DNA of 64,000 nucleotides from Symbiodinium sp. CCMP2592 (Eukaryota; Sar; Dinophyceae; Suessiales; Symbiodiniaceae), in contig CAJNDT010000967.1 of assembly GCA_905221615.1 (NCBI GenBank), positions 43,564 to 107,563 on the forward strand, in the 5' to 3' direction. Made by a program: the position numbers and the translations under genes. Below the pieces are notes generated by a model. The model was not told where the DNA came from. It did not search any database and was given only the letters and a program-made list of their open reading frames with translations. Numbering within the stretch: position 1 is the first letter of the stretch; every line of letters starts with the position of its first letter. Positions 15,642 to 47,572 of this stretch are shown here, piece after piece.

Positions 15642-15646
15642 CAAAG
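15642..15646. other. Putative target-site duplication, left copy (CAAAG)
   Basis: CAAAG directly precedes the left inverted repeat at 15647. The same five bases directly follow the right inverted repeat at 47568-47572. Five bases can match by chance, so the evidence is the combination with the inverted repeats. Confidence 0.65.
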
Positions 15647-15709
15647 TGAGGGGAACGCAGAAGGGGGCAACGGTCTGTCAGGCAAAGGTTGACCCTTCGA
15701 CGAAGTTCG
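15647..15709 (+). repeat. Left terminal inverted repeat
   Basis: Pairs with 47503-47567 in reverse complement: 22 of the first 25 bases match, and GGCAA, GACCCTTCG and CGAAGTTCG are shared further in. Several TTCG/CGAA words follow internally up to about 15780 and may be binding sites for the mobilising enzyme (inference). Confidence 0.75.
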
Positions 15710-16460
15710 TTTTTTCAAAAACCCTTCGGCGAACTTCTGCGAACGTTTTGGGGGTTCGTGAGGGGTTCGTGGGTTGTTCGGTTACAAGATAAAGTTCTGA
15801 TATGTTGTTAAAATTCCCAAGTATATTAAAAGCTTCAATAAGAATTTACGACACTACACCCCGGATAGTCTGTGAAGTTTATATGTCAGCGAGATGAAAT
15901 GATGATGATTTGCCACGCCTTTTTCTCTGCATCTTGCAGGGATTTCCTGCGAATGTCTTTCCAAAAATACGGAGTTTCTTGCGTTACTCTGGCTCATTAG
16001 CAAAAATTCTTGCCAGGGCCCGACAGTCGTTCAGTGCAGGTCCAGGAAGTGCAGAATCCTGGCGGGCGGGAGTGTAAAATCACAAATGAGGTGCGTCAAA
16101 AGGCTTGTTGCTCTGGCAACCCGTTTTCTCTCTTGCGACTTCTGCGGCCAGTGACTAAGGCAGCGTTTTATCGCAAACGGCCCGGCAAGGCGGTTGATCG
16201 CCAAAACTTGCCAGGTTCAGCGGCCGAGGACTCGATTAAAATTTCTTGCCTTCAGAAACAGCGGCAGCGGAATTCGGCAGAGTCAGGCCGGGGCGCTCTT
16301 GAAATACTTCCCTGCTCTCTGACCTACAGTCTCGGAAGACTCAGAAGCAGGGGTAACCCGAGAACACAAAAGCATGTGACACCAACTTTCAGCGATGCAT
16401 TTTTTATGTTAAAAATAATAATGCTTCTTCTGTGTTCTTGCCCCTGAAACAATCTCAGTC
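15710..16460. other. Left subterminal region of the element
   Basis: Begins with repeated GTTCG/CGAAC words, then an AT-rich stretch at 15780-15900. I see no gene. GCAAGA sense words begin here at about 15935, so this already has the element's composition. Confidence 0.5.
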
Positions 16461-16464
16461 AAGC

Positions 16465-18286
16465 TTACTTTGGCGATCCTCGCCCTCCTGATGCTGGCGA
16501 CTTGATCGAGCTGACGGGCGATCCGGCGAGGGTCTTCGGACTCTTGCTAGGCGACGACTTGGAATTGATCTTGCGCTTCGGCGTCCGCGGGGGAGTGTTC
16601 TTGCCGTTCCCAGCTGCCGGTTGAAGCGCAGTCTCCGATTTCGCCTGCCACGATTTCGTCTTCTTGCCATCACCAGAACCGGCTTCGGGGGAGGAACCCG
16701 TCGGGCACTCCTTCAGAAAGAACGGGCTCTCGGGCAAGGTCTTGCCCTCGTTGATGTCGGAATTCAGGATCTTGCACACCGAGATGTCCACCAACCCAGC
16801 ACCTGACGGAATTGCTATGCAACGAACAACTGAGTTGGAAGAAGTGGTTTCAACATGTTCTGAATAGACGAGAGAACTAGAGAAGCGCGTGCTTAGATAA
16901 CTTGATCTGAAAGATTCGCACATTGCAGCTGAGAAACTCAAGGATGTGTTGAAGTTTCTTGCGCACATGACCTTGATGTTGTCGATGTTCTGCATCTCCG
17001 GCGGAAGCTTAAACATCAAGTCGGTCTGCATGTACCGCAACTGACTCTTGCCGTCGTCCTGCTTCTCCAGCCTCCAGTAGCTGCAGGAGGGATCGTCACA
17101 GAACTCCTTGAGAACGCGGACTCTTGGGCTTGGGTGAATTTAAGGCCAACCGATCCGACAAACAAGGCAACGGTTAAACCGAATTCATTCAACTTGAATT
17201 TTCACTGACTTGGACTCACGACCCCAGCCGCATGTTGGGCCTAAGAGGCTGAGCAATGAACAGGCGGCGGAAAATCACGATGTTGCAGCAGGATGCCTTA
17301 CTTAGGCGGGTTAAACGAGTAGGTCCTGGAAGGTCGTCTCTGGCCCCCGTGGCTCCCAGGTTTCTAGCCGGCTGCCGTAGTCTGTGAAGCGCTTCATCAT
17401 GAAGTCCTCAAGCGCGACCATGCTCTTGCTCGGCAACGCGCTGTTGACGTCGCAGTGAGTGATGAACCTACGGCGAGTGAGGTGTTTTGCACTTTTCTTG
17501 CTTCGGCAGAGGCAAAGAAGATTTGAATGAAAGATTGTTTTACATGTACTACTGATTCACAGCCAAGCTACGCGAGCAGGGTCGCCAGGAAAGCACGCTC
17601 TATCTTGCATCTGAAGTTCTTCTGCTGTTTGTCCAAGAACGACATCACTTTGGGAATCATCTTGCAAAGCAGCGGTCGCGTTTGCTCTTGCCCAAGCAAT
17701 CGGAACTTGTTCATGTAGGGCTTCAGCTTCTGCTCCGACGAGTCGTCGTCGCCCACGATCTTGCCGGAGTCCAGCGAATCAAAGCTTCCCATACCTTTAT
17801 GCCACGTGCGCTCTAAAGACAATGAATCACAGTCAGTCATTTCACTCAAGTTCAACTGAATTTAAAGAACCTAGCTCGCTAAAGCTTCACAGTACTATTT
17901 TTCTTTCCCAAACATACCCAAAAAAACGAAGAACTAAAATTCTCAGCGACTGAAGCCCCGATGGATGTGTTCCAGTGCTTTCGGCCGTAGGGCAAACCAC
18001 GCATCGAGCTCCTGCCTCATCGTGACCAGTCTGTTCTCTTGCGCTTCAAGATTCGCTTTCTGCTCTTTGCGCAAGGCTTCCTCCGCCTTGTCCTCAGTTC
18101 ACGAATATTCGGACATGTGATTAGCTTGATTGATGGGATCATATGTTTAAAGTTAAGGGGGGTCGGAAGGTTGAAGTGTAGACGCCTTGCTTGCAGACAA
18201 AACACTTTCAGCTTCTTCTCCTTCGAAAGCGCCTTCTCTTGCACTGCCTTGGTTTTTGACTGGATGCAGCTCTTCTTCGGGGCCAT
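16465..18286 (-). CDS. Element gene C: basic, coiled-coil-like protein of unknown function
   Basis: Start at 18286 (MAPKKSCIQSKTKAVQEKAL). The first exon (18206-18286, 27 codons) and the second (about 17948-18092, EALRKEQKANLEAQENRLV) join in phase 0 and predict a charged helix or coiled coil. Next come 17572-17812 (HKGMGSFDSLDSGKIVGDDD ... LLGQEQTRPLLCKMIPK) and 17317-17467 (FITHCDVNSALPSKSM ... KRFTDYGSRLETWEPRG). Their junction 17572/17467 keeps the frame with donor GC|GTAGC. A further exon at about 17136-16980 encodes FCDDPSCSYWRLEKQDDGK and LRYMQTDLMFKLPPEMQNID. The last part (16465 to about 16835) ends in a Ser/Pro/Lys tail (PPRTPKRKINSKSSPSKSPK) that resembles a nuclear or DNA-contacting tail. 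The 17136 and 16835 junctions are not resolved. No enzymatic motif is recognised. It is the most 3' gene in the element's transcription direction. Confidence 0.6.
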
Positions 18287-19348: not shown

Positions 19349-19372
19349 ACCCTAAACCCTAAACCCTAAACC
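19349..19372. repeat. Interstitial telomere-like repeat, CCCTAAA x3
   Basis: Three consecutive CCCTAAA units. An inverted partner, TTTAGGG within AGGGTTTAGGGTT, lies at 19538-19551. TTTAGGG is the Arabidopsis-type telomere repeat also reported in dinoflagellates. Confidence 0.75.
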
Positions 19373-19562
19373 GGAATTATTATTAAATTACTGAAACAGA
19401 GCTTCAAGATCAGTCCCAAAGACCCCGAAACCAAACTTGAAAGCCCGGGAAAGAAGCCCAGCCCCTGAACGAACTATTGTAAGTGCATTGTATTAATGAT
19501 GTTTGCGCTCTTGCTTCTTACTTATGCTAATATTAATAGGGTTTAGGGTTCAGGGGTGTAGG

Positions 19563-19565
<3 letters not shown>

Positions 19566-19606
<41 letters not shown>

Positions 19607-19616
19607 GAGTGAGAGT

Positions 19617-19650
<34 letters not shown>
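19566..19650. repeat. (GA)n microsatellite with GTGA interruptions
   Basis: About 85 bases of GA with three GAGTGA interruptions near 19602-19623. It follows the TTTAGGG-like motif. Confidence 0.95.
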
Positions 19651-19653
<3 letters not shown>

Positions 19654-21177
19654 CCGCCGGGTCGATGTCGATGTGGAGTCCGCCAGTCCCAGCCGAACAC
19701 TCGGAATTGGTGTCGGCAGCTGCTAAGTAGACGAAGTCTCGCAGCCCGGCAGCCAGCAGATTACAAGGATCCACGAACGGATCCATGGAGGCCTTCTGCC
19801 AAGGGCATCCTCCAGCGAGACGCGAACCAGGTCCAATGTGAGGAGAAAGCCTTTTTGCCTGGGCGTCTTCTGGTAGCGGAAGTCAAACTTCCCGACCATG
19901 CGGTTGCACCAGGTCCGGTGGTCAAAACCGTTCTCCACGATGGAATTGGCATTGTACCCTCCAGTGCTTTCGGAGTGGGGCTAACTACGGTGTTCCCCTG
20001 GGCGGACAACCCTAGTATGTCTAGAGAAGAAAGGCCCGCCTAAGAAACCTTCCTCCGCCAAAGGGACCACCCCTATTTTAAAGGTTTCTTAAAACAACAC
20101 CCCCTACACTACACCCAATTCACCCAATGCCTTAGCCATTTAATTAGTTCGGAGGAGGCACGGTGGAGTCCTACACCGGGGATTCTATTTCAGGAGCCGG
20201 AAGGCGAAAACTGAAGCATCCCCAGGGTCGAAATGATACCCTCCGAATGTGAGTTCGGCCTCCTGAAGTGAAGAAACTGAAACATTAAATCAAGGCTTTC
20301 TGACAGGGCCCCATAATGCTTCGGCAAGGGAATCTTACGCAGTCGAGGTCCACCCTGAAACGGCTCCTGACATACCATTCGGCAACGGGTTGGGCCTTAG
20401 GGCGGGGGGCTTAGACTACAGCCTCCGAACTAATTAAACTCAACCACCTACCGTACACGCCAAGAGCGGGACGGAGCTGAGCGAACGGCGCCAGCGGCAG
20501 CAGCCGGGCAGCGCAGAAGGGTGGCCTGCGATTGGAGCTTCTGATTTTAAAACGCGGCATATAACGTAAATGCAGATCTAAAGCTTCATTTGTTGCAGAC
20601 TGCACAACGCCGTTTGGTGACATGCCTCTATCGGCATCGGCTCCCTCTGGCAAACGGCGTCTGGCACGGACTGGACCTGAGCGAGCGTCGGCAACGGTGG
20701 ATATGAGCAATCAATGTCGGCACTGCTGCGGCCAAGTGCTTGCCGCCACAACGGCAAGTGGCTTGTTTGTTCTTACATCCTCTTTTCACTTGCCTGTCAC
20801 CCTCCGAAAGAAGGCACTTCACAAAGCATCAAATTCATGACCCCGTGGCAGTAAAGTTCTGTTCTGAAGACAAAGACCCAAAATGACTTCCCCAGCTTTG
20901 GCAGTCTAGCCCCACTGAGCTCCAGGCGTGCCAAAGAAAACGGCCGCAGCAAAGTCCTAGCAAAAACGGGCGGTTCTATTTTAATGCGGCTCGCTAACAC
21001 CACTGCTCTGGGCCTGCGGACATTGATTGCTGCTTCTTTGAAAGTCTGTATCTGCCCAGCACCTCATCTAATAATATCGACACCGCACTTTTTTGGTCCT
21101 CGCATTCAATCATCGACGAGCAAGCACTGACGGCGACGATTCTTCTTGCCAGCGGCGCGGATTTTGCAGCTTCGACT

Positions 21178-24100
21178 TTAGTCGTGAATGGCATCGAAGT
21201 CGAAAGGACACTGAACACCGGGATGCAAATTCCCGTGTCTGGCCCAAACCGACTCGAGAAGGAATCTGACGGCGTGAGCGTCTCCCTTGCCTCCCCAGCT
21301 CCTGCTTTGCGACCAGCGAGATCGGCGGCAAGAGACTCGGAAACACTTGTTGAACATGTCCTTATAGCACTTGTAGTTCTCTGGCAGAAACTGCTGCATC
21401 TTTCTTGCGTCCCAGGTGTCAGAAGAACGGAAGGTGATGGGCTTCCTCTTGCCGTAGGGCTGCTCGGCTTTTGCCGCTTTCTTGCGAATTCGCCTGATGC
21501 TTTTGGCGATCTGTTTGAGCACCGGTGCGTTCTCCTCATCTTTCTCCGCAGCTTCTTCTGCAAGCTCTTGCGCCTCTTCGCCATCGCCATACTTGCGATC
21601 CTCTTCACCTCAGATCTAAATTGTAATTTGATTTATTTTCTGATGAATCAAGCAATAACTGACGAAGGCAGCAAAAGACAATGACAACAACTGAACGAGG
21701 AAGTGGAATCTAATCTAACAAGTTAAGGGGTTTTGGGTTCAGTGTCAACCTTGCTTGGCCAGGCTACCCAAAAGGTTCCCCAAAGAGTCTGCATTATTCT
21801 GGCACCGCCAGAACATGGATCTCTCCAAGGCTTGTGCCACGAGCTCCTCCGTGGTGGCCAAAGTTTGTCGGATGGATTCTTGCAGAAGCCCTGCAAAGTC
21901 ATCAGCCTCTTCAACGACGCCGTGCTCGTCCTGTGACATGAAGGATCAATGACACCGATATCAGTTCTGTCAACGTCACTGTTGCTGCATTGACAGAACT
22001 ATTTCACAGAATGAAGCGCTCTGAAATTCAAGACTTCAAGGAGTCAAATTTGTGAACTGAAGCTGTGCCAGCAGAAGTTCCTTGAGGAGGCGCTTCAGCA
22101 TGGACTCCGGGACGTTGAAGAATCCTTCTCTTGCGGAAAACTGCAGCAATGAGACCGATGTCTTGCTTCTTTCCCACAGCAAGCCAGGCAAGGGTGGTAC
22201 GACAAAGTTCTCCTGCCTTTGGTTTTTTTTTGGCGCCTTGTGTCTTCTTGTCACCGCGACAGTAAGCGGGGCAGCTGGAACTGCATCTAGCACAACCCAG
22301 TCGGAGAAGTTGATGACTGCCTCGAAATGCAGCACCACCGGGTCTTGCAGCTTCAAGAAGACGAAGGACTCTTGCTCGCACCTTTCCATTCTCAGTAATC
22401 CCACAGCCGTGTTTTGCGGCCAGGGCCCGAGACTGAGCCAAACCTTCGCTGTGTCGGTCTTCTTGCGGACGACCAGGCCAGCAGTGATGAAGGCGCTTCT
22501 CCAGGAGGACATCAAGGTGTTCATTCTGGCGGGGGGCGTGTTGACCATGAGGATTTGCTCCAAGAAGGTCGCGTGGTAACCCATGCTGCTCAAGTTTGGC
22601 CAAGAAGCTTTCCCCATGACCTCTTGCAGCTTCGGGTGCCCATCCATCTTGCGCGTGTGGTGCACTGCTTTGGGGATGGGCTCTTGCGCGGCCACAGTTT
22701 GCCCGTTCGTCTCGATCTCGGGGTAACCGAAAGAATGCAACACCTTCGACGTGCAAACTTGCGACCAGGAGTCTGCCGGGGCGAAATCGTGCATCTTGCC
22801 TTCTGCTGATTCGGCTTCCCTCATCTTGCCAAAGCCCTCCTCGTTGTAGGTGAAGATCATGGACCCGAAGCAATCTCTGAGATACTGGACCAGCTCTGGC
22901 GTGGCTTTCCAATCGTTTCTTGCCGCAAATCTTGCCAGGTCAGAGACCCATCGGAGGCGCATCGCAGATCTGGTAGCTGCAAGTTTGCACCAAGGGTTTT
23001 CTCTTATCAATTCGGTCACCTTCGCATCAGCTGCGGCAAAAACTTTCAGCTCTTGCAGGACCTTGTCCGCCGCCTCGACGCTCTCGCAGCCTCTTGCCAA
23101 AACCAGCGGGAAGCAGCCATGTGAAAGCCTGGGCGCATAGTTAAGTTAGGGTTACCGGAGCTGGGACTGGGGTCGGTTTATTTCATTCAGTCATCATAAT
23201 AATTTTAATTTAATGGGATCATATCCAAATTTGTAGTAGTAGTGTGAGTCTGACTCTGACTGACTGAAGTCTGCAGCATTCGAGGAACTTGAGCTAAGTC
23301 CGTCAACGATTGGTGTCCAAATTTACTTGTTCTCCAGTGACCATTGTCGACACATGGCCTGGTCATGCTTCCAAATCTTCAGGTCGCACAATCAAGGTTA
23401 GCCCAGAATCAATCAATGCTGCACATGTTCGACAAGCGACTCGAAGAGACAGTGGAATCTCATCATTGCGATCGCATAGCGGAAGAGCCGCTCGTAGAGG
23501 AAGTCTTGCCAAGTCAGTTCTGCGTCGTCTGGCTTCAGCGAGAAGTAGTACAAGGAGTTGCCAGCCGCCAACGCGTCAATGATGCCCATGCTGCGGTGGT
23601 TCTCTGGCAAAAGTGCCTCGTTGGCGATCTCTTGCACCTCATAATTCGACTCATGGTACTTGGCAGACAGACTAAAGTCGTACATTTTTTCTGTGGATGA
23701 ACATCGCTAAAATTATATTAGTAATTCAGCCAGAGTCACGACAGTTCGCCATCGCCCTTGTGCCTGCTCTGCCAAGTACCTCCACGAGCCCTCTCGTCCT
23801 CTTACGCTCTGGCGAATCCTGTTGAGTTCGCGGGATACCGGAACAGAGACGCAGTACCAAGCATTCACGTTTCCCAGGACCTCTGGGTCGCACACTAGGT
23901 GCATTATGGCCTGCAGCTTGTTTTTGAACTTCGACAAAGCTGCAGCCTGCTGCTTCTTGCTCTCCGCCAGGGTCTCCGCACCGCTGGCGATGGCATCTTG
24001 CATGCTCGACAACATTTCCAGTTGCCCACCATTCTGGCGCAGCCAGCCGTTCTTCAACCCGAAACTGACCAGAATGATGCCCAAAAGGCCTGCTTCTTGC

Positions 24101-26672
24101 CTGATGTTGTGCCAGGCTGAATGAAACTCATCCCAACGAGATGCATTTCCACTGCCGATGTGCTTCTTGCCGATGCTGCTGCCTTGCAAGAGGCGGATGA
24201 TGTCTGGCACACTGAGATCGTGCTCGGCGACACCAATTTCCATGGCCACGTGTGGAAGAAAGAACTTCATGATCTCCCATTCTGCAGAGGTCTCTTGCTG
24301 TCTTTGTTTCTTCTTCAGCGTCTCCAGAAAACTCGTAACTTCTTCTGCGACGATGCGCTTCCACTTCATGCCACCCCAGGGACCTCGTGTCCAGCTTATG
24401 AGCGCATTGGCCCATCTTGCGCTGTAGTTTCCATAGGTCTGCGCATTCTGCAGGACACGCTGTAGCTTGTGCCTGGGGTCGTAGATGAAGATGCTGCGGA
24501 GTCTTGCGTGGAACATGAGGAACATCTTGCAAGCTTGAGCATCAGTGCCGTGGTCTGTACAGCACACCAAGACTGGTGTCTTGCCCAACGGTTCAGCGTC
24601 TTGCATTTTCTCTTCCTCCTCATTTTCTGGCGCAAAAGCCACGAGTCCTCTGGCGTTGTTGGTGAGCTTGACGATGTGATCCAAAGCCAGCACTTGGTCG
24701 TACGTGCTTAGTCTGCAGGCGGGCTTCTTGCGGCTGGACAGAGTCTCGGCTTCAGCATCTTCCAAGTCTCGTTTGCGATCTTGCCCTCAGCTTCTTAAGC
24801 AAATGGTCGAGAGCAAGCATGCCAAACTAAACTGACCGCTTAGATCTACTTAGACGTAGTCTTTGGCGGACGTGTATCCAGCCTCTTACGTTGGTTTGCA
24901 AAAGAACGCCAACTCAGCTTGAATGTCTTCCATTGACAGCCCAAGGCTCGAAGGATCGACCTGACATCGATGGGCCCAATACCCGCAGTTTCTAGCGAGT
25001 CGTCTCTCTGGCCAGGAATCTGGTGGCCGGAGTCCTGGTGCACCTGAGGGAAGACAGAAGCGACTCCATTAGTTTAATGAGCCTTTTAACATTATTTATT
25101 AACTCTTTAATTAATATTAATGAATTTCTGGCTCTGATTGGCCTGCGGTGGTGCCCAGCCACACTCGCCACTTGCCAAGTTCATGCAGGCGTAGGACGTG
25201 ATCTTGCGACCACCGACGCGGGAGGAGTCGAAGCACACGTTCAGGTGTCTTGCGCCCCAGGTTGCCGCCAACAGAGTCTTGTAATAGGAGGCTCTCTCCA
25301 GGTCCTTGTCCTTTCTCGTCAGCAAGCTTCTTGCCACAATACTTCTTGCCTTGAGAGCTGCTTTTTGCTGCCTTGTGAGCTTGATTTTCTTGCGTTCACT
25401 CTCTTGAGCTTCATCTTGCCGCTTGCGTTTTTTTTTGTCTCTGGCATTCCATGCTTTCTGGCGCGCTTCCACGACGTTTCTCACACGCTGTACCGGATCT
25501 CGACGGTGACCTTGCTGCGCCATATCTGGCGTGCCGTCCTGCCAATCCACGAAAAACATCTGTTGCTCCATTGCAGCAGCAAGTTGCTCCAGAATCTGGC
25601 ACAAAAGCCATCGCATTTTTTCTTTCAATCGTATGTCTCTCAGAAACTGCAGAAGATCATGCTCTTTACTCAGGCGCAGTCCCTTGACGCTGATGTTTGA
25701 CCTCTTGCATGCTTTTGCCAGCTCTTCGAAGTGAACTCGACCCTGGACTACGGTGACCTCCACAGGTTCGTGGTCGGAAGGAGGTTGCAAAGTCAGCCTC
25801 ACTTCTGTTGCAACAGCGTTCATGACTTTGCTCAGCCAGTCACCGCAGGCCTTGCGCGTGGTCGCATCCTTGCCAGAAACCGCACCGGACAGAGTGACAA
25901 GGAGCACCAGAACTGTGCTTCCGCAGACTTCATGTGCTGCCATCTCTCCCGGCATGCCGTGGCGATCTTGCCGGGATCTGTCCGGCCACAGGAAATGCTT
26001 CTGGCTTCCCAGAATGGCAGAAGCCATCTCGGACCAACTCTTCTTGCACGTCCCAAGGAAGTTGTGAGGATTCTTGCCTTTCTGGAAGTTCTGTAAACGC
26101 CACCAGAAATGATACCCGTCCAGCGGCAAGGCAAACTGTAGCACAAACAGCGGCTGCTCTTGTTCGTGGACGCCCCGGAAGACCTGTCAGGGCACATTAT
26201 TTATTCACCAGGAACTGCAAGCCAAGGCCGATCGATTCATCACCCTAACTGTTTAACTGCATCTTAACGTCTTTGCTCTGACCTTGGCCTCGTGGTCATC
26301 TGGCGGGTAGAGGAGGAGACGATCCTCCTGAAAAGCAGTCAGCCACTTCAGTCTGACCCCGTCCACAGTCGACATCTTGGCAAAGAGCTCTTGCGAGGCC
26401 GCGTCTCGCCAGACGGACCAGGAAAAGACCTTGTTAAGCCACTCTGTGGTCTCGCCAATGCGAAGGTACGCCCAGCCGGTCTGGCGGCTCACACGTACGA
26501 TTGCCTGGGTGTTCTCTGGCTCATCGAAGAAGTGGCTTTCGCCAGTTAACGTGTTGCTGACTCTTGCCCGTCCGGCGTGCCTGAGGACACGGAAGGTCTC
26601 CGCGTCATGCTTCACGCTCAGGCAAGAGTCGGCATCGAATCTCGCGTCCGGGGGCCGCTGGCCTCTTTCCAT
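21178..26672 (-). CDS. Element gene B: candidate RNase H/DDE-fold transposase with basic C-terminal domain
   Basis: Eight exons join in continuous phase: 26283-26672, 25143-26183, 24890-25043, 23806-24785, 23423-23706, 22069-23128, 21750-21930, 21178-21608. They give 4521 nt, about 1506 residues and a stop at 21178. Donors are GT (four) or GC (three). Three introns are exactly 99 nt. Residues about 143-180 hold a Trp-rich stretch (YHFWWRL). Near residue 449 LNVCFDSSRVGG resembles strand 1 of an RNase H fold. Near 606-610 VLVCCTDHGTD resembles the second acidic strand, followed by IFIYDPRHKLQRVL. A third acidic residue is not certain. Exons 5-6 (FHCLFESLVEHV ... WVVLDAVPAAPL) match no named domain I can assign. 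The C terminus (RIRKKAAKAEQPYGKRKPI, then CFRVSCRRSRWSQSRSW and a helix) is basic and resembles an AP2-type DNA-binding module. The first exon may be internal if group Y (28.5-30.1 kb) is its 5' part. Exon 3 has a second plausible frame (MEDIQAELAFFCKPT). Confidence 0.6.
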
Positions 26673-26779
26673 GGCAGACGACAGCGTGATCTTGCTGACC
26701 GTTGTCAACGCAGTTGTGATTCCAAAGTTGTGGCGTTGCGGTTCTGCCACAGGCTGACTGACTGAGTCAAGGGTAATCA

Positions 26780-27175: not shown

Positions 27176-27795
<620 letters not shown>

Positions 27796-27825
27796 GTGAC
27801 TACTACTACGATTGTTATTGCTCAG

Positions 27826-28295
<470 letters not shown>

Positions 28296-28509
28296 ACTAC
28301 CACGGGTATTAGTAGCAGTACTGGTACCAGTACTGGTACTAGTACTACCACTTGACGAGCACCTAAGGTCCTAGTTAAGTAGTCATCAGTAGTACCGTAC
28401 CAGTACTAGTACGAGCACGAGTAGCAGTGCACAAGTGCTCCTACTTGTACTAGTATTACTACTCACTGGCAACACTAGTAGTTAGTAATGATAGCACTTC
28501 TCCTTGTAG

Positions 28510-33608: not shown

Positions 33609-33645
<37 letters not shown>

Positions 33646-36600
33646 TTTATAATATGTATTATATATATATATGTAAGTACGTATGTATGTATTATTAAAT
33701 ATTATGTATTACATCTGAGAAACTGCAACTGTAAGCAAAGAATCATGCTGGACTTCTCCATCTCCCCCGGAGGAGCCACCTTGCTGACTCTTGCCAGTGC
33801 TGGTTTCCGCCTCCTCGGAGTGAAAAAGTTGCAGGCCTAGCCAATGAAATATGCAACTTACAGCAGACAATGCTTGAGGATATAGCATGAGACGGAGCGT
33901 CATGCTTTCCTGCTTCGCCCCCTGAGGCTCTCTCCTTGGCGTTACACGGCTAACACTTAAACCCTGGCTCTGGATATCATCATCTTGCGTACCCAGCGTC
34001 AGCATGCAGGCCACTCTGTTGGCCTGAATTCCCGTCCTCGGAGATGGGCTGTTGCTTCTTAGGTTTACGTTTTACGTGCCACACCGTTTTGGAGAGCTCT
34101 GGAATCCTTTCGAAGATTCGGCTGAGCCCTGACGATCCTAGCTTTCATCCTCGGAGTGACATGCCGAATTGCAATTAAACGTGTTCTGATGCTGTTCTTG
34201 TAGCTTCCTGGCGTCCTACCGCAGACTCAGTCATGTGAGCCCTGACCAGACCAGGTTTCTGTCCAAGGTACAAGGGATGCCGAAGTTGAAAGGCTGACTT
34301 GTATTTTGGCCAACAACTGCTATTCGGAGCATGTTCTACTGAGCTCTTGAAACAAACGTAAGCAGTATTGTATAGAATATCCTCATGCATCTTCAGGCTA
34401 CCGAAGAAGATGGAGCTCTAGCTGGCGCAGTTCTTTCGGATTAACTGTCTGGCTCTGTAGCGGAACACTCCTGCCTGCTCTTGGAAACGATTCACGTTGG
34501 CCTCCTTTGCCGACTCGTGACGAGCCGTGCTGACGATTTCCGGGCTGGCAACTTACCAATAACGACCTTCCTAACCAGAAACTATCATCGTGACTGAGCC
34601 CGTGCGGACGAAGGAAGAATCTGAGAATCAGTAAGTAATAAATAGTAATAAGTATGATTTCTGCAGTTTTGAAATTTAGTTCCAGGACTGAACCTAATAC
34701 CTGCTCTTGCGAGCCAAGAATCATCAGTTTGGGGCTGCTCCTGCTCAAAGTCGTGCCACTTGCTTTCCTCGGAACATTAATAATTAACAATGATTGATTG
34801 TGTTGGTATTAAATATTGTTAAGTAGTTGCTTTCCGAATATTCATGAAACCTTGCCCCTGTGTACCAACCAAGAATCATCATAGCCTGGCCCTTGTCCCC
34901 ACGAGCTCTGGCTCCAGTCTTGCTGGCTCCAGCCTTGCTGGCTCCAGCCTTGCTGGCTCCAGTCTTGCTGGCTCCAGTCTCGCTGGCTCCAGTCTTGCTG
35001 GCTCCAGTCTTGCTGGCTCCAGTTTTGGTGCTGCCGGGAGTTGCACCAACCGCTGTCGGCCTGAGAATGAAATCATCTTGAATCAAGACACACTCAGCAC
35101 TAGTTGATTGCTCATCTTGTGTGTGTGTGGTAGAAGTCAGACAACGTCATTCGTCGTGCTAAATCAATCTGCTCCAGAAGCAGTATCCTGACCCAAGTTT
35201 ATTGCTTGCACCGGCAACAGGGATATGTGGCAAGCTTACTCCCGTTGACTCTCAATTGTCAATCCTGCAAGTTTGAACCAAGAATCCGCTTCCCAAGATT
35301 CATGGTAGCCTGGTAACTAACTAATTAAATTAGAATATACATACTAAGTGTCAATGTTAGCGATTGTAGATGTCCGAGTCATATTCAGGACCAAGAATAC
35401 GGGTCCTGCCTTGCCTGTGAGGGAGGGTAGTAGCTCTGAGATCCAGCCTCGCCAATACTTGGCAAGTATATGATATGATGACTGCTACATTAATTATATT
35501 GTGCTACATCGTCGAAATGAAGTCTTCCTCTCGCGGCACCCCATGCAAGGAATCAACCACATTTTAAATTTACATCACATCCAATCTAATCTACGAGAAC
35601 AAACCTGCGACATCTGGCCGGCACCTTTCGAACCCATTCTCACTTGCTCTTGCCGACAAGAATCGTCTTCGTGCGGCTTCTGACGCCCGTCGCCGGTGGT
35701 TGCATCCTCGGAAAAATATAATTAACAACAAAATCAAGCTCATCTTGGACGTCTGACATGTGGTGTTCTGACCTGCCCTTGCCGTCAAAGAGTCCTGGTG
35801 CCCGTGGCACACATCGTGCGGGGTTTCGTCCTCGGTTTAGACACGGTGCGATTCATTATTAATATATTTATTAACTGGCACTGACTGATGGCGCGGCAAA
35901 TCTGAGTTTGGACACGCACATGGACCCTATACTTACCTGGTTTTGCTTCCTGGTCTCAAGTGTTAGTTAACTCATTATTAATGTACTCTGTACGTATTAC
36001 ACGCTGAAGCTGCGAGATGTGACGCACACCGGATTCTAGCTGCTCTTGCCGTCAAAGAAACCTGGTGTCCGTGCTCTTGCCCATCCTCATCGCACGGCAC
36101 TTCGTCCTCAGAAACCGGCAATATAAGGGATTAAGTAGTTTTATATATAATAATGCCGCAGTGTAACTTCTGAAAAAAACTGACTGTCTGTGGACATGCG
36201 GCTGTTGCAGACAAAAACTCGTGTTCTTGCTCTGGCTGCTCCTCCTCGTGGTCCTCAAGGCCCACGGCTGTGTCCTCCGAATAGATAATTACTCACAAGG
36301 TTGTATATCTGACTTTGGACATATTAATGGCAGAAACCCTACTAGTCGTACCTGGTTCTGCCTCCTAGCCTTATTAAATTAAGGTTACACGCTAAAGCTG
36401 CGAAATGTGGCGTGCACCGTATTCTGACCTGCTCTTCCAAAGAGTCCTGCTGTTCGTGCCCGTCGCCCTGGTGCTCTTGCCCACCGCCCTGGTGTTCCTC
36501 CTGCTCATCGACCGGCATTTCGCCCTCGGGTTACGGCAACCGTTGAAGTTAAGGTGCTGAAACAGACCTGGACATGTGGCTCTTGCCGACCAAGACTCTT

Positions 36601-38051
36601 GGTGTTCTTGAGGGCCGGTTGCTGCGCCCTCGGAATAGCAGTGTCTCAAGTATGGCAAATCTGACCTTGGACATGTGGCGCACCCCCTGTTTTAACCTGC
36701 TTTTGCCTGCCAAGACTCGCCAGCCTCTTCTTCATCTGCTGGCCACTCTTCCTCGAGCCAGCGTTCTGAGCTGATGCTACTGTGCCAGCTGTTGACACTG
36801 TCATCAGCATCCTGAGTCGATATTTGCTTGGCCTTCCAAAACTAGCTCCGTCGAAATGTCTGTAGACCGGGGCGGGTGTTGTTTGTTCCTCAGAATCTAA
36901 TCTAAGTCTAAGTTGTTGTCTCTCGCTGGTGTAGCAAGCAAATCTGTTGGTTGCCGGCCAAGACTCGCCGTTGTCTTGATTTTCATCTTGCCAAGGTTTT
37001 TCAATATTATGATTTCAACACCAGACCGACTGCTATATCCGGCCGTACACATCTGAGAAACTGCAACGAGTCTCCTCGTCTGGCCCCACGATGTGGTCCT
37101 GCAGGTTGATGCGAGGCTGAAACTCTTTGCGAGACAAACAGAATCACTGTCCTCAGTTGGAGGTCGGGCTTTGCCAGGCTGATAGCTGCCCCAGGCATCA
37201 TAGCTTAGATCGTCCTTATAGCACGGTTGTTCAGAGCATGAGGCTCCAATGGACCATGTGTTTGTTGCCTGAGGAGGGAGCCATGGTCGGGAACTCTTGC
37301 TCTGAGGGCGTCTCTGGCTCCTGTACAGAGAGCAAATGGCTTCAGTGTAAACGAAAATTGCTCTGAATCCAGCCCAGCTGCGGTTGGCTCGTCTGGCACG
37401 GGTGGAGGACTTGCCTTCGGCTGTGCCGTCTTTTTTGGCGGAGGTTCTTTCATCTGAACCGCCTGATCAGGAATCGCCAACGCACAGCAATTCATCAATC
37501 TATGTTTCACAAGTCGCCTTGGCAGGGCCCGGCACCACCGCCGAACACTGCTTTACCTGAGCCGCAAGGGTTACTCGTTCAAATTGGAACTCATGACATT
37601 GTCGTGATTCGATTGGATTGTGCATTGCAGCGCAGGTCGCCTTGCTCCTGGATGTGGGCGGCTGTGCCTCGTGGATGGGGGCGGTGGTTGTGGCGACAAC
37701 TGCGCAGTACCCACAAGTAATTAATGACATTTCTTTCGCGTCTGAAAAATCATTATCTAATGCAAACGAAGTTGAATTCATTGTTGTTTATTACTTACTG
37801 CCTCTATTCACATAATAAGTACTGATGGTCAGAAGTATTTATTTACAACATTTATTCAACTAAATAAGTCAAATCAAACCTAATGTAAATTACTTATCTT
37901 TGAAAACCACTGTACTGTTGATATTTGCATTATCGTAATATTTTTTGTTAATTGCCATTCTCAGGCAAAACTTACATTGCAACGTAAGGCAGCGGTGAAA
38001 ATAATAACAATAATAAAGTAAATAAATAAATGAACAAATAAATAAATAAAC

Positions 38052-38177: not shown

Positions 38178-40893
38178 TTATATATTAAAAAATAATACTA
38201 ATTTTTAATACTAATACTAATATAATTATTAAATTATAATGATAATATACTGATAATAATATTATCATGCCAAGTCACGTCGGCCTTGTCTTGCTGGCCT
38301 GGAAAAATGTCCAGCAACGGTGGTGATGCCTGATCAGAGATGAGTTCTTGCAGCCACTGTTCAGTCGCTGCCGTCGCAGCGGCCGGCCAATTAATGCACA
38401 TGCACTGCAAGGCATTTGCGGTAGTTGTTCGGAACACTACAACACTACAACTAGACAGCATTCAACAAGAATTTTCCTGGATTCATTGACCACCGATCCA
38501 CAAACTCCCATGCGGTAATTGCATTACAAGTCGCGACGTTGGCGCCAGGAGTGATAGTAGGGGCCTCGTCATCAGCAGCGGCGATCAGTGACTAGTGCTG
38601 ACTGACTGAATTACCCTCGCAGTGAATAATGAGATTAGAAGCCTCATGAGTGAACGGCGGCGGGGCTTTTATTCTTTGCGCCTGATGCAACAACGGCCAG
38701 AATTACACTCGACCAACCCAGCCACTCAAACACTCTCACTCAAATTGCAGTTGTGAGCAGTGCAAGTCGCCTCTGGCTCTGGCGACGTTGTCCCCTGAGC
38801 AGCAGCACCGAAGCACGCAGTACTCAAATGAGAAACCGGTTTTCTTGCAAAGCAAGTCGCCGCCTGTTCCTCGGGAGCGGCGGTACGGGCCAGTTGTGGC
38901 TGTGACTGTATCACTGCCTGAACAGGTGCCACAGAAGAGCTCACACTCCCTCACGCTGCTGGGTTCTGGATTGCATGTTGTCTCGGCTTTTCCAGGCTGA
39001 TCTGATGGAGTCTGAGAAGCACTCACCGAATAAGAAACTCTGGTTTCTTGCAGAGCAAGTCGCCTTATTCTTGGGAGCGGCGGCTTTCTTCGCGGCGGGC
39101 GGCTGTGACGGCGCCTGAACAAGTGCCGCCATCACAGAAGAGCTCACACAGACACGCCGACACACTATTACTCTTTTAAGTCGTCTCGGCCTTTCCCGTG
39201 CCAGGCTGATCTGATGGCGCCTGAGCAGCAACAACGACAAGCACTCACCGAATAAGAAACTCGGGTTTCGTGCGGAGCAAGCAAGTCGCCTTGCCCTTGG
39301 GAGTGGCGGCTTTCTGCGCGGCGAGCGGCTGTGATGGCGCCTGAACAAGTGCCGCCGTCACAAAAGAGCTCATCCAGACGACGTGCTACAAAATAATTGT
39401 TGCCGCACAAGTCGTCTCGGCCTTTCCCGTGCCAGGCTGATCTGACGGCCCCTGAGCAGCAACGATGATCAATAGCAGGCACTCACCAAGCAAAATCTTG
39501 CAATGCAAGTCACCTTGTCATTGTCCTTAGGAGTGGTGGGCTGCTTTGGTCTTGCCTTTGCAGCGACAAGATTGTCATTGTCAGAATCGAGGAACACCAA
39601 TAATTAATACTGTACTTGCAGACCAAGTGGCTGCGTCTTGCTCTGACGACGCCTGAGCAGCGGCACTGGAGAAGTTTGGCTGCTGGGACACCACGTGAAC
39701 AGTGAAGTGAACAGTGGGGGCAATTTCCACAAATTGCATTGCAAGTTGCCTTGGCCTTCGCTTCCGCAGCCTGGTCTTGCGGCACCTGAATGGGGGGATG
39801 CTATAAATTGTTGCAAATGAGTCATTCTCTGACACACCAACACTGAAGAATATTGCCGCAGCCAGCTAGCTTCAATCACTGCCCTCAGGCGCCTGTGCAT
39901 TCGAACCGTAACCCCAGGGGGGACGACCCGCAGGCGGAGGTGGCTTCTTGCGGTACGGGTTTTCTTGCAAATAGCTCGGTTCCAGATCCGTCTGGACCGG
40001 CTTGTCCTCCTTCGGGACCCTGTACCACTCTGACTTGTCGTAGTTCCACTGCTGCGGGTGCCCCGCCACTTGGATCGCACAGGGTCAAAGCAAATCTGCA
40101 ACGTTATGCGCATACAAACACAGAGATCGGACTGACTGACGTGACTGTCTGACTGGCTGACTGGACACCACTACCATGTCTCTCTTGCGAAGAAGCTGCT
40201 GAGGAGGTAGTTTTTCTCATGCGCCCAGGCCACGCAAAATCTGAACACGTCTGGATAGACGTGTGCCTTGTTGAAGGCGAGCCAGTGGCCTCGCAGCAAT
40301 CAGTCAAGTCTGACTCTCACACTGCAGCCTGAAAAAACCTTACTGGCTAGATGAATCACGCTAAGTCTCGGAGCAACTTGTGCGTGAGCTCCTTGGCGAA
40401 CGCCTTCGCGCGCTTCTGGCAAGGGTGGGATCTTACCGCCAAGACCGCCTGGGATTGCGCAAGAAACATTCTCGCTTGAATTGCAATACAACTTTTTCAG
40501 CTCTTGCAGCCAAGGAACGGCCCACGCCGGCATATCTATCTGGAGTTGAAGCATCACCCATGCCAGATCCGGACTCAAAAACAGCAGCTCTTGCGTCACG
40601 AACTTATCGCACTCTTGCGCCGATTTGTAGTCTGGCAGTGGCCAACTGCTTGTCGGCCGGGTCGTTCGTGGGAGCTCATCCCAGTCTCAGTACGCAGGGA
40701 GAGAACGGTCGAGTCTTACAAATGTAGCAATCTGATATGTTGCAGTCGAGTTGCAGACCTCTAGCGCCTTCAAGAGCAGCCGGCCTTGTTCTCCATAAGG
40801 CGGCTTGAGGCCACCCAGGCAGTTGGCCAGTGTCTTGCGCCAGCGCCAGACCACGTCTGGCACCTTCTTCTTGGGCTCTGGCTCTTCGGCCAT
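32520..40893 (-). CDS. Element gene X: large micro-exon gene of unknown function
   Basis: The first exon, 40720-40893 (58 codons, MAEEPEPKKKVPDVVWRWRK), ends at GTAAGAC. Then come about 40640-40437 (FVTQELLFLSPDLAWVMLQL, AVPWLQELKKLYCNSSENV), about 40410-40355 (KRAKAFAKELTHKLLRDL), about 40285-40170 (HWLAFNKAHVYPDVFRFCVA) and about 40070-39895 (WNYDKSEWYRVPKEDKPV). These lead into two arrays of duplicated micro-exons at 37509-39785 and 33400-37010, described separately. Downstream exons are about 33215-33115 (SSKTPTEPAIEIKEAWQLW), about 32990-32745 (PTEDQRKKLLEAASYGVDER) and about 32700-32610 (NEVEPDGPDDVFDYDRDLEP). The protein would be acidic, rich in Gln, Glu, Pro and Trp, and largely disordered in the middle. 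No catalytic motif is recognised. Whether it ends near the gap or continues into group Y is unknown, and several junctions are unresolved. It may be two adjacent genes. Confidence 0.5.
33541..33680. repeat. (TA)n microsatellite
   Basis: AT/TATA-rich tract with long alternating TA runs, probably within an intron of gene X. Confidence 0.9.
34866..35060 (-). repeat. Coding 15-base minisatellite in gene X (QDWSQ repeats)
   Basis: Exon of 65 codons with acceptor CTCAG|GCC and donor GTACACAG. The body is about nine tandem copies of a 15-base unit encoding Q-(D/G/N)-W-S-Q, then YDDSWL at the exon end like the other exons of this array. Codon-preserving variation (GAC/GGC) fits a translated repeat. 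Expected protein features are low complexity with regularly spaced tryptophans. Confidence 0.75.
37200..37510 (-). CDS. Gene X exons between the two micro-exon arrays
   Basis: Two proline-rich minus-strand pieces lie here. About 37465-37360 encodes EPPPKKTAQPKASPPPVPDE. About 37320-37240 starts after acceptor GTACAG and encodes EPETPSEQEFPTMAPSSG. Both fit the disordered composition of the rest of gene X. Exact borders are uncertain. Confidence 0.4.
37509..39785 (-). repeat. Tandem micro-exon array 1 (K-A-T-C exons)
   Basis: Nine related exons end in GCG-ACT-TGC-NNT before a GCAAGA-like donor, and several begin GCG-CC(A/G)-TCA-CAG after acceptor TTCAG. Placed exons are 39738-39785, 39620-39652, 39502-39555, 39052-39114, 38849-38917, 38759-38794 and 37509-37556, with lengths 48, 33, 54, 63, 69, 36 and 48, all divisible by three and phase 0. 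39274-39340 (67) carries a four-base TTGC duplication and 37629-37699 (71) is out of phase. Conserved GTGAGTG sites about 25 bases downstream of some copies are a rival donor, but the GC sites keep the frame in most copies. The encoded unit is Ala/Pro/Lys-rich and ends (K/E)ATC. Each copy holds one cysteine or tryptophan at this position. Confidence 0.75.
37830..38270. repeat. AT-rich intron-like region with (TA)n
   Basis: Long AT-rich tract with TATATA runs at 38041-38180, between gene X exon clusters. No coding potential is seen. Confidence 0.8.
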
Positions 40894-41019
40894 GGCAGCG
40901 CGGGCGACTCTTCTTGCCCGCGGCTTCTGACACCCATTCACTTTCTTGCTTGAGATCAAAAATTCAAGGCCCACATGTCGCTCAAGACTCATGCATGCAT
41001 CCAGAAACTCAAAGCTGAC

Positions 41020-41520
41020 TGACTACTGCTTCTATGTGCAGGGCTGGCCTCCAAGTCGTCTCTTGCCGAGGATGTCTGTCACCTTGGGACAGTGACCGAA
41101 GAGCGGGGCTAATAAATGATTTGAAGCTGTCCCGCACCCTGCAGCCTGCGGCCTTGCCCGGTTCTGGCCTGCATGTCGGTGCCGAGCCAGCAGCGGCCCG
41201 AAGTGAAGAAGCTCCTGGAGTGGGTCGCTTGGCTTATTGGGCATGCTGCTTATGCTTCTTCGCTCTTGCTGATTGGGCCAACCAGAAAGACTCTAGCTCA
41301 TGGACGTTTAACAGCCTGGCAAGTGGCTTCGTTTTCCAGCTGCTGTCTGGAGATGTCTGGCGATCAGCAAAGCAGAGAAAATGAAAAGGACACCGGATGG
41401 AACCAAGGCGATGTCGTCACACGCGCCATAATTTTTAAACAAAACCATGTAGCATGAACCTTGGCTTGTCTTACTAACTATCTCAGCTAGCCTCGATTCT
41501 TGCGGTGTCCTTCTTGAATT
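41020..41520. other. Short spacer between genes A and X
   Basis: No convincing exon; two GCAAGA sense words are present. Probably the 3' flank of gene A and the 5' region of gene X. In a unidirectional cluster this would hold poly(A) and trans-splice acceptor signals, which I cannot identify with confidence. Confidence 0.35.
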
Positions 41521-41526
41521 GAATCT

Positions 41527-44655
<3,129 letters not shown>

Positions 44656-44699: not shown

Positions 44700-45450
44700 C
44701 TCTACGTTGTAAAAAATATAATTAATTAATTATGCTTCTGAGTCTGACTGAGACAACCTGGTCAACTGCGGACGCACTGTTCTTGCTGACTCAATTCAAC
44801 CTTGACGCAAATCTGACAAATGGTCAACAACCGCTGATTCGATTATTGATCTGATCAAAAGCCCACTGCAGAAAACCAAACCACCCGGGTCTCCTCCTGC
44901 TAGAAATCTGGCACGACGAGGCATGCGGAGGTCTGGCCTCGGTAGTCAATCTGGCAATTCACTTAGCATGAATTTTGTATATTATTATTAATTGATTTGA
45001 ATTTTGTATATTGATTGATTGCCTTGGGCAAGTCTCTAACTAATGTCTAACATTTTTTACAAATGTTCTTGCCTGTTTGGAGATTGGTCCCGGTTTAGGG
45101 CTCGGAGTTGGGTCTGAGGTCAGGCAGAGTTCAAGTCTGATGGCTTCGGGCAGCTAGCAAATCGGAATCTTGCGCGGGAGAGGGTGGTTCGGTTTACACT
45201 TACGACTTACATTCAAAGCTTGCGGAAGCTCCGTATTTATCAGGGGGCGTTCGTCATCGGTTCTTACGCTCTCGGCAGGGTTAGGTCTTGCCCTGAAATT
45301 CCCACATCAAGAAACACATCACAGTCTTATTATACACTGTAACACTGACTACTCAACCCAACAACCATCAACCAATGGCCAATAATATCAGTTCAATACG
45401 ACGTAACTAGTTGCTTGCTGGAAGAATAATCTTACTCTGCATTGACCCTC
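44700..45450. other. Upstream region of gene A
   Basis: No coding signal recognised. It contains two imperfect TTGATTTGAATTTTGTATAT-type repeats near 44965-45020. It would hold the promoter or trans-splicing acceptor of gene A, which I cannot point to. Confidence 0.35.
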
Positions 45451-45459
45451 CTTTCTAAT

Positions 45460-45765
45460 CTTGCGACCGCCCGGTCGGCATCCTATGGACGTCTGTTGAT
45501 CTTACACCTTACTCCCTACCGTCTCTCCATATAGTGACTTTGCTATCTCTTACTCGTACGACCTCACGGCCGGCGTCCAAATGGACGTCTTGCTAATTCT
45601 TGCCGTATTACGACTCGGCTTCCCAGCCGCTGTTCTTACGACCTCACGGCCGGCGTCCGATGGACGTCTTGCAAAAACGGGCGCGACCTCCCGGTCGACC
45701 CGGCTAGCGTAAATCTTACTCCTAGACCCGGGCACGACCTCACGGTCGGCCCATTAACTCCTAAC
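45460..45765. repeat. Right subterminal direct repeats (CGACCTCACGGCCGGC)
   Basis: Five copies of a motif CGACC(T/G)C(A/C)CGG(C/T)CG lie near 45464, 45560, 45639, 45684 and 45734. Three are followed by CC(N)ATGGACGTCTTG-like sequence. The motif is itself partly palindromic. Position near the right end of the element suggests a binding-site array (inference). Confidence 0.7.
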
Positions 45766-45773
45766 CCGAATCC

Positions 45774-46072
45774 TTAGGCGCTCACCCGGAAACCCTCACT
45801 GAGTACTTTGCCCGGGCTCCCAGCATCACCATGATCTTGTCCAAGACGTGAATGCTCTCTTGCTTGGGCTGGGCTTGCGGCTTCAGGAGGGCTGCATGGT
45901 GGGGTTGGTTTCTTTTCTTTCGGGTCTTTGGGAATAGGGTTCTTACAATGGACTCGGGCCAAACCCTGCAAGACTCGCAAACCCCAAACCCTCCCAACTG
46001 CAGCGAAGCCGAAGTCTTGCCCTGACTGAACCTTCCCCCCTTCCCAAAACAAAAAGACACAGCAGCACGCAT
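45774..46072 (-). CDS. Short hypothetical frame near the right end of the element
   Basis: Minus-strand frame with a Lys/Pro-rich middle and the C terminus SIHVLDKIMVMLGARAKYS. It contains sense-strand GCAAGA words like the other element exons. No domain is recognised. It may be an exon of a short gene or non-coding. Confidence 0.25.
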
Positions 46073-46099
46073 GATTATGATGACGATGATGATGGTGAG

Positions 46100-47440
46100 T
46101 ATCTATATGTGTTCATATTTGTTGTTGCTATTAACTACATTCTTTATGCTGCTAACAGTTAGTAACAATGTAATTGCCTAAGCCTCTGGCTACACTATTG
46201 TCAAGTTTGTTCTTTCGACTCAACTGTTGTTTATTCTTTCTGGTTACAAGCAGAGGGATGATCGTGATATTATTGTACTCAATCTTGCTGAAACCTGCTG
46301 ATTATAAAATAGTACTATTGTTCTTGTTAGCCAGTATTCAGTGTTACAACAGGCAAAACCACGAATAATCTAGCTAAGTCAAAGTGTGTATTTAATTATT
46401 CATCACTTATACGGCAGTATGTTTTGATTAGTGTTGACATCATATCATACACAAGTTCATAAAGCTGCTTAATTATTATACAGAACCACTCAAAGAAAAT
46501 AGATGCATATCCAGGACACACATGTTCTGCGTCCAAATTAAGCAATCAGGAAACTGAGTTTTTTTATTATTGATACTATTAGAATATGAATTGGGATCGT
46601 ACCGGTGATAGGCAGGCCCCTGTGAGAAATAGTGTGCTGATGATGAGTTATTTAAAAATTATTGTTTAAATTGTTACCACTAGCGATAGTATCACAAATT
46701 GAATAATAAGAAATAGCTAACAAACAATATACTTTATTGACAATGGCCTGTATGGACATTGATTATCAATTAGTAACTCTGAACAGCACACTAACAAGTA
46801 TTCTGCAAGTTAATTGTTCATGACAGGGTTCCCATATTATTCATCTATGACTAAGAATACAAGCCATTCAGGCTTCGAATGCAAATCTATTATACTATGA
46901 GCCATTCGTGATAAGGTTAAAGTATGCACATTATTGCTAATACTTTTTAGTTTATTAGTTTTTCACATTCATTGTAATTTCACCTTTGTATTTTTTGAAT
47001 ATAAATATTACTAAAATTATTAATATGAGACTTAATAAATATTTGTATTTAATACATCATTAATAATACTAGTATTAGTAATATTTAATTACTAATTTAA
47101 TTAGTGTATTAGTATTATTAGTTCTGTTGTTACAAATTATATTGAAATATCAGTATCATAAGTACTAGTATTTAAATAAATTTAAGTATAATAATAATTT
47201 ATGTAACATTAGTATTAGGATTTAATTAGTATTAGTATTAAACAAATTAGTATTAGCATTAATATTAGTATTAGTAGTTATTATTAGTAGTATTATTATA
47301 TTAGTATTAGTATTATTAGTATTATATTAGTATTCGTATTATTGATATTAATATTAATATTAATTATAATTAAATGAATATTAATTAGTTATTATTAGTA
47401 TTATTAGTATTAATTAATATTAATAATATTAGAATTTAAT
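46100..47440. other. AT-rich right subterminal region
   Basis: Very AT-rich, with dense TTAGTATTA/TAATACTAA-type simple sequence from 47030 to 47440 and no coding signal. The mirror region at the left end (15780-15900) is also AT-rich but far shorter. Confidence 0.6.
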
Positions 47441-47502
47441 AATAAAGGTTCGAAGGAGGGGAGGTGTTCGGCGAGGGTTCGGCGAACGCCGGCGGGGTTC
47501 GA

Positions 47503-47567
47503 CGAACTTCGGGCGAAGGGTCGGGTCTTGCCTTTCCAAAGTGTTGCCCCCTTCTGTGTTGCCCTGA
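47503..47567 (-). repeat. Right terminal inverted repeat
   Basis: Reverse complement of the left repeat with about 49 of 66 aligned positions shared. Internally it continues into CGAAC/GTTCG words (47450-47510), like the left end. Confidence 0.75.
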
Positions 47568-47572
47568 CAAAG
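47568..47572. other. Putative target-site duplication, right copy (CAAAG)
   Basis: Directly follows the right inverted repeat and matches 15642-15646. Confidence 0.65.

Follow-up and report, generated by a model that had tools for sequence, protein, structure and literature searches.

The 64,000-nucleotide stretch of Symbiodinium sp. CCMP2592 analysed here (the window; G000:C967:43564-107563) contains, at positions 15642–47572, a recently active giant DNA transposon of approximately 30–37 kb. It stands for a new family of giant transposons that was active recently and whose transposase candidate, gene B, is unclassified; little is known of the mobile DNA in this group of genomes. The most unusual part of the element is its hexamer bias: the word GCAAGA, below called the tag, is concentrated on the sense strand of the coding stretches, and related families of the same genome are marked by other words. 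The best overall explanation, in our estimate, is a recently active giant transposon with family-specific marks in its messenger RNAs (mRNAs), to which we assign a probability of about 0.6.

Ends and copies of the element

The element is bounded by inverted copies at 15647–15709 and 47503–47567, with CAAAG outside both. The limits and the assembly gap inside it are the following.

15642–15646, no strand: left target-site duplication CAAAG; the paired copies show other 5-bp duplications
15647–15709, plus strand: left terminal inverted repeat, begins TGAGGGGAACGC; 40 scored genome places including the window copy, 154/154 identical
32211–32310, no strand: 100 N, assembly gap within the element
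47503–47567, minus strand: right terminal inverted repeat; the final 30 bases are identical in 8 paired copies
47568–47572, no strand: right target-site duplication CAAAG

The left end reads TGAGGGGAACGCAGAAGGGGGCAAC... and the right end, as reverse complement, TCAGGGCAACACAGAAGGGGGCAAC..., the outermost bases being TGAGGG/TCAGGG. The left terminal inverted repeat is adjoined by TTCG/CGAA-rich subterminal repeats. Taken alone, the inverted repeat is only moderately unusual: aligned locally, the two 100-base ends reach a score of 33, a value attained by 4 of 20,000 random repeat-masked pairs from the window (3 of 4,000 in the comparison with unmasked pairs). The 18-base core of the repeat has no second occurrence in the window with up to three mismatches. 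The ends are nevertheless settled, because the limits derived independently from the tag density agree with them and because the same ends recur genome-wide with their own duplications. The best-fitting segment of TCTTGC density (the tag read on the plus strand), in whose fit the repeats were not used, is 15932–46283, compared to the ends at 15647 and 47567. Hence the tag density alone outlines the element in this window within about 1.3 kb at either end, and may be used as a tool.

The search of the assembly (1,098,105,373 bases) with the first 154 bases of the element yields 40 scored matches out of 68 candidates, the window included, and all of them are identical in 154 of 154 positions. 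The 28 loci extracted around left ends (27 places, one taken twice) all share the same 150 bases. They have 24 distinct 30-base left flanks, thus a small number of contigs may represent the same site in alternative assemblies. The right end was sought in 10 kb around its expected place for 18 copies and located in eight of them; the ten copies where it was not located may differ in length, be truncated or contain gaps. In all eight paired copies the five bases outside the two ends agree with each other and differ between copies (CTATT, TACCT, ATAAG, TATAT, TTATT, GAAAT, TAATC and ATACA; CAAAG in the window). Such a fixed 5-bp duplication at independent sites, seen in 8/8 paired copies (18 examined) and in the window, is characteristic of class II elements with terminal inverted repeats, and it is practically certain that 15647–47567 is a transposon.

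The paired copies are 29,279–36,697 bases long (n = 8). Their right parts have 0–17 mismatches to the window over 2.3–4.7 kb, that is, 99.2–100% identity, both figures being taken from the main aligned block, as the summed ones include paralogous repeats. The fetched right piece contains about 5 kb of N in two of the paired copies and none in the other six, and did not extend to the middles. Due to the 100-N gap the size of the window copy is approximate. The element contains, in the window copy, several tracts of TAG/CTA/ACT trinucleotides, each spanning several hundred bases (27176–28300, 30232–31460, 42303–42894), and the copy sizes (29–37 kb) may differ mainly by such tracts.

An earlier note, made from the window alone, had interpreted the stretch as a multigene mobile element with inverted ends and CAAAG borders, and had suggested looking for paired copies with ends 10–60 kb apart. 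Both the inverted ends and the borders are located, and eight pairs are found at 29.3–36.7 kb, each of them, like the window copy, with its own duplication. The same note considered the possibility that the inverted repeats are mainly the ends of short elements. In the eight paired copies they are not, while in the other 10 of the 18 copies the right end was not located.

Gene B and the related families

Gene B consists of eight putative exon stretches on the minus strand, from 26849 down to 21181, with about 1,586 codons in total. The exons are predicted from open frames and homology; P0001–P0005 below are homologues from other public records, E4 and E5 aligning to P0001–P0004, and E2 and E3 to P0005.

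26256–26849, minus strand: putative exon E1, 3 tags; the true start is inside this open stretch
25122–26186, minus strand: exon E2, 10 tags; homologue P0005, 41% identity
24894–25040, minus strand: exon E3 (HQDSGH...), no GCAAGA, one GCCAGA; the same exon start is readable in P0005
23736–24786, minus strand: exon E4, 12 tags; homologues P0001–P0004
23434–23640, minus strand: exon E5, 2 tags; the counterpart is continuous with E4 in P0001–P0004
22045–23130, minus strand: exon E6, 14 tags; counterparts in families 2, 3 and 4
21751–21930, minus strand: putative exon E7, 1 tag
21181–21609, minus strand: putative last exon E8, with 4 tags; the stop follows immediately below 21181

In the genome, E4 has 116 scored matches, of which 57 are full-length at 98–100% identity (the window included; four carry stops). 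The candidate first catalytic aspartate is in the E2 motif CFDSSRVGGRK (codon at about 25227–25229), which is kept in families 2, 3 and 4, and the candidate second one is in TDHGTDA of E4 (codon at about 24553–24555), followed by YDPRHK. The pattern FD[AS]SRVGG is common to the sampled family copies, with MDGGRAGG in family 5; the D-x-G motif is kept in them as well, and the order is that expected for a DDE enzyme. Based on these conserved motifs and on the copy number, gene B likely encodes a DDE transposase. It would cut at the terminal repeats and join the element to its target with a 5-bp stagger. The choice of gene B as the transposase candidate had been made already in the earlier note, and it agrees with the gene being multi-copy, recently amplified and provided with the D...D-x-G pattern, from which its catalytic identity is deduced.

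No accepted Pfam domain is present inside the element, gene B included, either among the open frames of the window or in the three minus frames of 17572–47567 (about 30 kb of the minus strand only, stops as X, threshold E 0.1). The gene-B profiles have no match among PDB sequences, and a search for relatives in viral contigs and prokaryote genomes yields none. At least 120 stretches of viral contigs match a 14-base core pattern; these were taken as chance matches and not used.

Diverged families of E4 exist in the same genome. The identity to the element (family 1) is 43% for family 2 (two places), 34% for family 3 and 31–32% for family 4; there is also family 5. Family 4 is found in 19 places, 99–100% identical to each other, with open frames of 1,036–1,612 amino acids. 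Its gene-B relative at L177 635–4876 (G000:C5114) is intronless, with a 1,414-amino-acid open frame, and has no accepted domain in a Pfam scan; the same gene in families 1–3 appears to contain introns.

Hexamer words of the families and their reading

Among the hexamers of the element, GCAAGA shows the greatest strand asymmetry, with 162 occurrences on the gene (minus) strand and 6 on the other one, whereas the 32 kb of flanks contain 11 and 12 per strand, 23 on both. Thus the hexamer bias, mentioned only briefly in the earlier note, is borne out; the single-strand gene orientation, noted there as well, holds for the coding stretches that could be supported.

15932–46288, minus strand: stretch with 161 of the 162 minus-strand tags; the one outside it, at 47531, belongs to the right inverted repeat

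Weaker variants of the tag are GCCAGA (68 on the gene strand and 9 on the other) and GTAAGA (20 and 2), and no wider sequence context is seen around GCAAGA. Seven of the 20 minus-strand copies of GTAAGA cluster at 45200–45950, the upstream end of the array, where GTCCAT...GACGCCGGCCGTGAGGTCGT-like units are also repeated. A role of GCAAGA as the 5' splice site was considered and dropped, as it lies inside open frames. Tags are missing from 46283–47526, the stretch before the right repeat, which has only 27% G+C. They are also missing from 19509–21144, which contains an (AG)n run; near it, at 19350–19370, there is a short run of CCCTAAA telomere-type repeats, and the tag-free stretch is perhaps a nested insertion or filler DNA.

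The tags are concentrated in coding sequence. The 13 predicted coding stretches (one of which, A2, has a stop near its end) contain 66 tags in 6,462 nt, about 10 per kb, distributed between the frames as 30/23/13. In 300 trials of synonymous-codon shuffling the mean is 20.8 tags and the maximum 28; therefore selection acts on the nucleotides. The proteins show the corresponding skew of dipeptides, AR (21) over RA (5), QD (13) over DQ (1) and QE (19) over EQ (11), while SK is not shifted (10 observed, 11.3 expected). In E4, residues coded by tags match the homologues in 27 of 121 comparisons, the other residues in 545 of 1,206, hence the tags occupy positions at which the protein tolerates variation. 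The seven gaps between the gene-B exons contain no tag in 910 nt, with 9.3 expected at the exon density (P = 9e-5). Across the whole element, the longer the open frames, the denser the tags: 1.5 per kb in regions limited to short frames and 8.9 per kb in frames longer than 150 codons, in a count where the mask of simple repeats removed 30 of the 162 tags. GC[AC]AGA is spaced along gene B more evenly than expected by chance, with the coefficient of variation (CV) of 0.69 versus 0.97, and a fraction of 0.0025 of 2,000 random sets is as even; for GCAAGA alone the CV is 0.74 and the fraction 0.0265.

The sister families have words of their own. In the coding stretches (for family 1, in E2, E4, E5 and E6 only) the sense/antisense counts for families 1, 2, 3 and 4, in this order, are the following.

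GCAAGA: 38/1, 4/1, 5/3, 1/2
GNGTCA: 1/1, 58/1, 4/1, 2/0
YCCGAG: 2/1, 0/0, 3/1, 35/0

The words of families 2 and 4 were not guessed beforehand: each ranked first in strand asymmetry among the hexamers of its locus. In 200 synonymous shuffles the maximum is 29 for family 2, where 58 are observed, and 19 for family 4, where 35 are observed. The bias continues upstream of gene B: the adjacent 5 kb of family 2 contain GNGTCA at 45/1 and AGNGTC at 51/0, and the adjacent 8 kb of family 4 contain NCCGAG at 44/5. In a test that allowed degenerate words, the z-scores of families 1, 2 and 4 are 6.93, 7.88 and 6.01, whereas the maximum over the controls (ten windows of the same genome, two orientations each, 20 in total) is 4.84. 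We are confident that at least three families genuinely have words of their own. A tag boundary in family 2 was withdrawn, as the stretch with zero counts is N.

The sense strand, the concentration in coding sequence, the presence in both intronless and spliced genes, and the tolerance of the protein together point to a mark in the mRNA, and the specificity of the words points to a reader that distinguishes the families. The words thus probably act at the RNA level. Each word would be a family-specific mark read in the mRNA, or in the exon portion before splicing ends. An RNA-binding protein, encoded by the host or by the element, would coat the marked message, and the coated message would be spliced, exported, kept or translated as self; alternatively, the proteins of each family might act only on their own products. 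The reader and the word would then co-evolve into dialects. We therefore put forward, as a tentative proposal with slightly less than an even chance of being correct, that a superfamily of giant transposons barcodes its mRNAs by hexamers, and that a cognate RNA-binding factor distinguishes the transcripts of its own family from host transcripts and from those of rival families, the code diverging into dialects. Export, stability, translation, cis-preference or protection may underlie the word data.

Several observations weigh against this interpretation. The exons are predicted from open frames and homology, and one copy per family was read for families 2–5. The best word of family 3, TCGYCTT (28/2 over 9 kb, z = 4.53), and that of family 5, GYCCYT (24/2 in 3.2 kb, z = 4.31), both fall below the control maximum, and the 4 kb upstream of family 3 have a different best-scoring word. 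Hence the rule is firm for three families only, and the words of families 3 and 5 are suggestions. The words of family 4 avoid one frame (1 of 35). The preference of the tag for long frames is modest when compared to other words of the same letters (median 149 versus 133 codons, P = 0.017). E2 does not repeat the result for E4: its tag-coded residues match no less often (9 of 18) than the others (104 of 259). GCAAGA is not unique to family 1, as a pattern for its clusters has 2,691 matches in the genome, compared to 1,629 of the reversed pattern; this cluster pattern is not discriminating, and among the matches listed with letters, which are the smaller part of the places, many are low-complexity repeats. 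Finally, the structure predicted by AlphaFold for P0001 and four relatives has the mean pLDDT of only 42.8, and no fold search was built on it.

The words could, instead, be exonic splicing enhancers, one per family, that use a splicing factor of the host or of the element. The tag-free gaps of gene B are consistent with this, and so are the approximate introns of family 2, which are poor in words: the first intron stretch (a short exon included) contains two words in 891 nt and one more is at 3688–3960, that is, three in about 1,160 nt versus about 20 at the exon density. Moreover, the element encodes a lysine- and serine-rich basic protein with an SRRTPSPS tail. On the other hand, gene B of family 4 is intronless and still has 35 words in 4,050 nt, thus its words cannot serve the splicing of that gene, and the words are spread through exons of 1 kb rather than being close to the splice sites. 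We consider the enhancer explanation unlikely.

A strand-oriented DNA site, comparable to Chi or DNA-uptake sequences of bacteria and used, for example, by the transposase, in repair or in gene conversion among copies, is improbable as well. The dense, dispersed and strictly oriented short word with family dialects does resemble DNA-uptake sequences, and the near-identical copies suggest exchange or a recent burst. However, introns and spacers should then carry the word too, and neither the gene-B gaps nor the stretch 46283–47526 does, although the latter is poor in G+C (27%).

It is very unlikely that the tag is a host-wide exon word, reflecting a codon or splicing preference that merely shows up in the element. 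The GCAAGA clusters elsewhere in the genome would agree with it, but the host sequence of the window and the sister families do not. The host UBC6/UBE2J2-like gene (1001–2169, minus strand), in which a 447-nt GC-AG intron parts the catalytic part from the membrane-anchor exon, has no GCAAGA in 720 nt of spliced coding sequence (P = 6e-4 at the element density); it is the only intron-bearing host gene examined. Another host-like open frame (54884–55867, minus strand; 328 amino acids, possible signal peptide, no Pfam match) contains two in 984 nt, and the count for both together is two in 1,703 nt. Furthermore, families 2 and 4 reside in the same genome and use other words.

The last possibility, that the unit results from chance pairing of repeats or is a scaffolding artefact across the N gap, might be entertained given the 100 N inside and a repeat score that by itself is not extreme, but it is refuted in practice by the eight other copies that pair the same ends 29–37 kb apart with exact 5-bp duplications (six of them having no N in the fetched right piece) and by the tags flanking the gap (85 on one side, 77 on the other).

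The reading of the words as family-specific mRNA marks makes testable the self-labelling of transcripts by mobile elements, the nature of the label reader and the co-evolution of the code with its reader. To our knowledge, there is no eukaryotic gene set in which an exact hexamer is maintained at about 10 per kb of sense coding sequence while sister families of the same genome have another one.

Other coding stretches and known systems

Besides gene B, the following stretches of the element are coding or possibly transcribed.

16468–17798, minus strand: gene A, coding at about 17798–17567, 17499–17314 and 17139–16468, 13 tags, no known domain
15937–16441, minus strand: sequence that follows the stop of gene A, 6 tags; it may be untranslated or consist of additional exons
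29191–29520, minus strand: coding stretch of gene N, 4 tags, no known domain
40400–41022, minus strand: coding stretches of gene C (MAEEPEPKKKVPDVVWRWRK...), no known domain
41526–41924, minus strand: exon of the lysine- and serine-rich basic protein, VSLQEDRAREEL...SSRRTPSPSL; Med19-like Pfam match below the cut-off only
42887–44364, minus strand: glutamine- and proline-rich repetitive coding stretches

Similar short exon-like units are arranged in series on the minus strand at 38700–39600 and 33400–37000, which suggests duplicated exons in the other genes of the element. The Pfam matches to UFD1_N1, HWE_HK, Med19, DUF2663 and PIG-Y are below the cut-off and were not accepted. There are no Rfam or tRNA matches, and no relic of the spliced leader was found with up to six mismatches. 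The end of E2 can be read with a donor of the GC-AG type; such introns are reported for dinoflagellates in the consulted part of PMC5029490. In the left flank, arrays of a 41-bp repeat (GAGCGGTTTGCTCC...) are present in both orientations at 9967–11197.

Among known mobile DNA, Polintons (Mavericks) and other giant elements share with the element the length of tens of kb, terminal inverted repeats, target duplication and several genes. Unlike in Polintons, which are characterised by a protein-primed DNA polymerase, a retroviral-type integrase and capsid genes, no polymerase, integrase, ATPase or capsid domain is recognised here in the Pfam scan of the minus frames, and the target duplication is 5 bp rather than 6 bp. 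The duplications of CACTA, hAT, MULE, P and KDZ elements are 3, 8, 9, 8 and 8 bp, respectively, and the scans of the element contain no Pfam transposase match to these or other named superfamilies. The 5-bp duplication would fit Transib. However, Transib elements have CAC ends and a RAG1-like transposase, and neither the TGAGGG/TCAGGG ends nor the lack of a Pfam match agrees with that. Starship-type giant elements of fungi are defined by a tyrosine-recombinase captain gene, and no Pfam match to a captain was obtained in the minus frames scanned.

In a literature search that covered few subscription papers and preprints, a family-specific exonic word in transposons was not found. The introners of Amoebophrya, as far as the consulted part of the source goes, are mobile DNA with inverted repeats and duplications, which creates introns and has no transposase genes (PMC7789003). 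To that extent they resemble the element, both being mobile DNA from dinoflagellates or their relatives and both having inverted repeats and duplications, and differ from it in that the element is multigene. The coding sequences of L1 and Tigger are described, in the consulted part of the respective source, as adenosine-rich and bound by SAFB, leading to suppression by this host protein (PMC10901741). Judging by that part, the common features are coding sequence tuned at the nucleotide level and purine-rich enhancer-like words, but the bias of the SAFB system is broad (GAAGAA-like), whereas here there is one short word per family. Moreover, GNGTCA and YCCGAG are neither A-rich nor purine-rich, which sets them apart from words of the SAFB type.

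Dense oriented short words are known from the DNA-uptake sequences and Chi sites of bacteria, the uptake sequences forming dialects between lineages. These are DNA sites of whole genomes, whereas the word of the element is concentrated in the sense coding stretches of a eukaryotic transposon.

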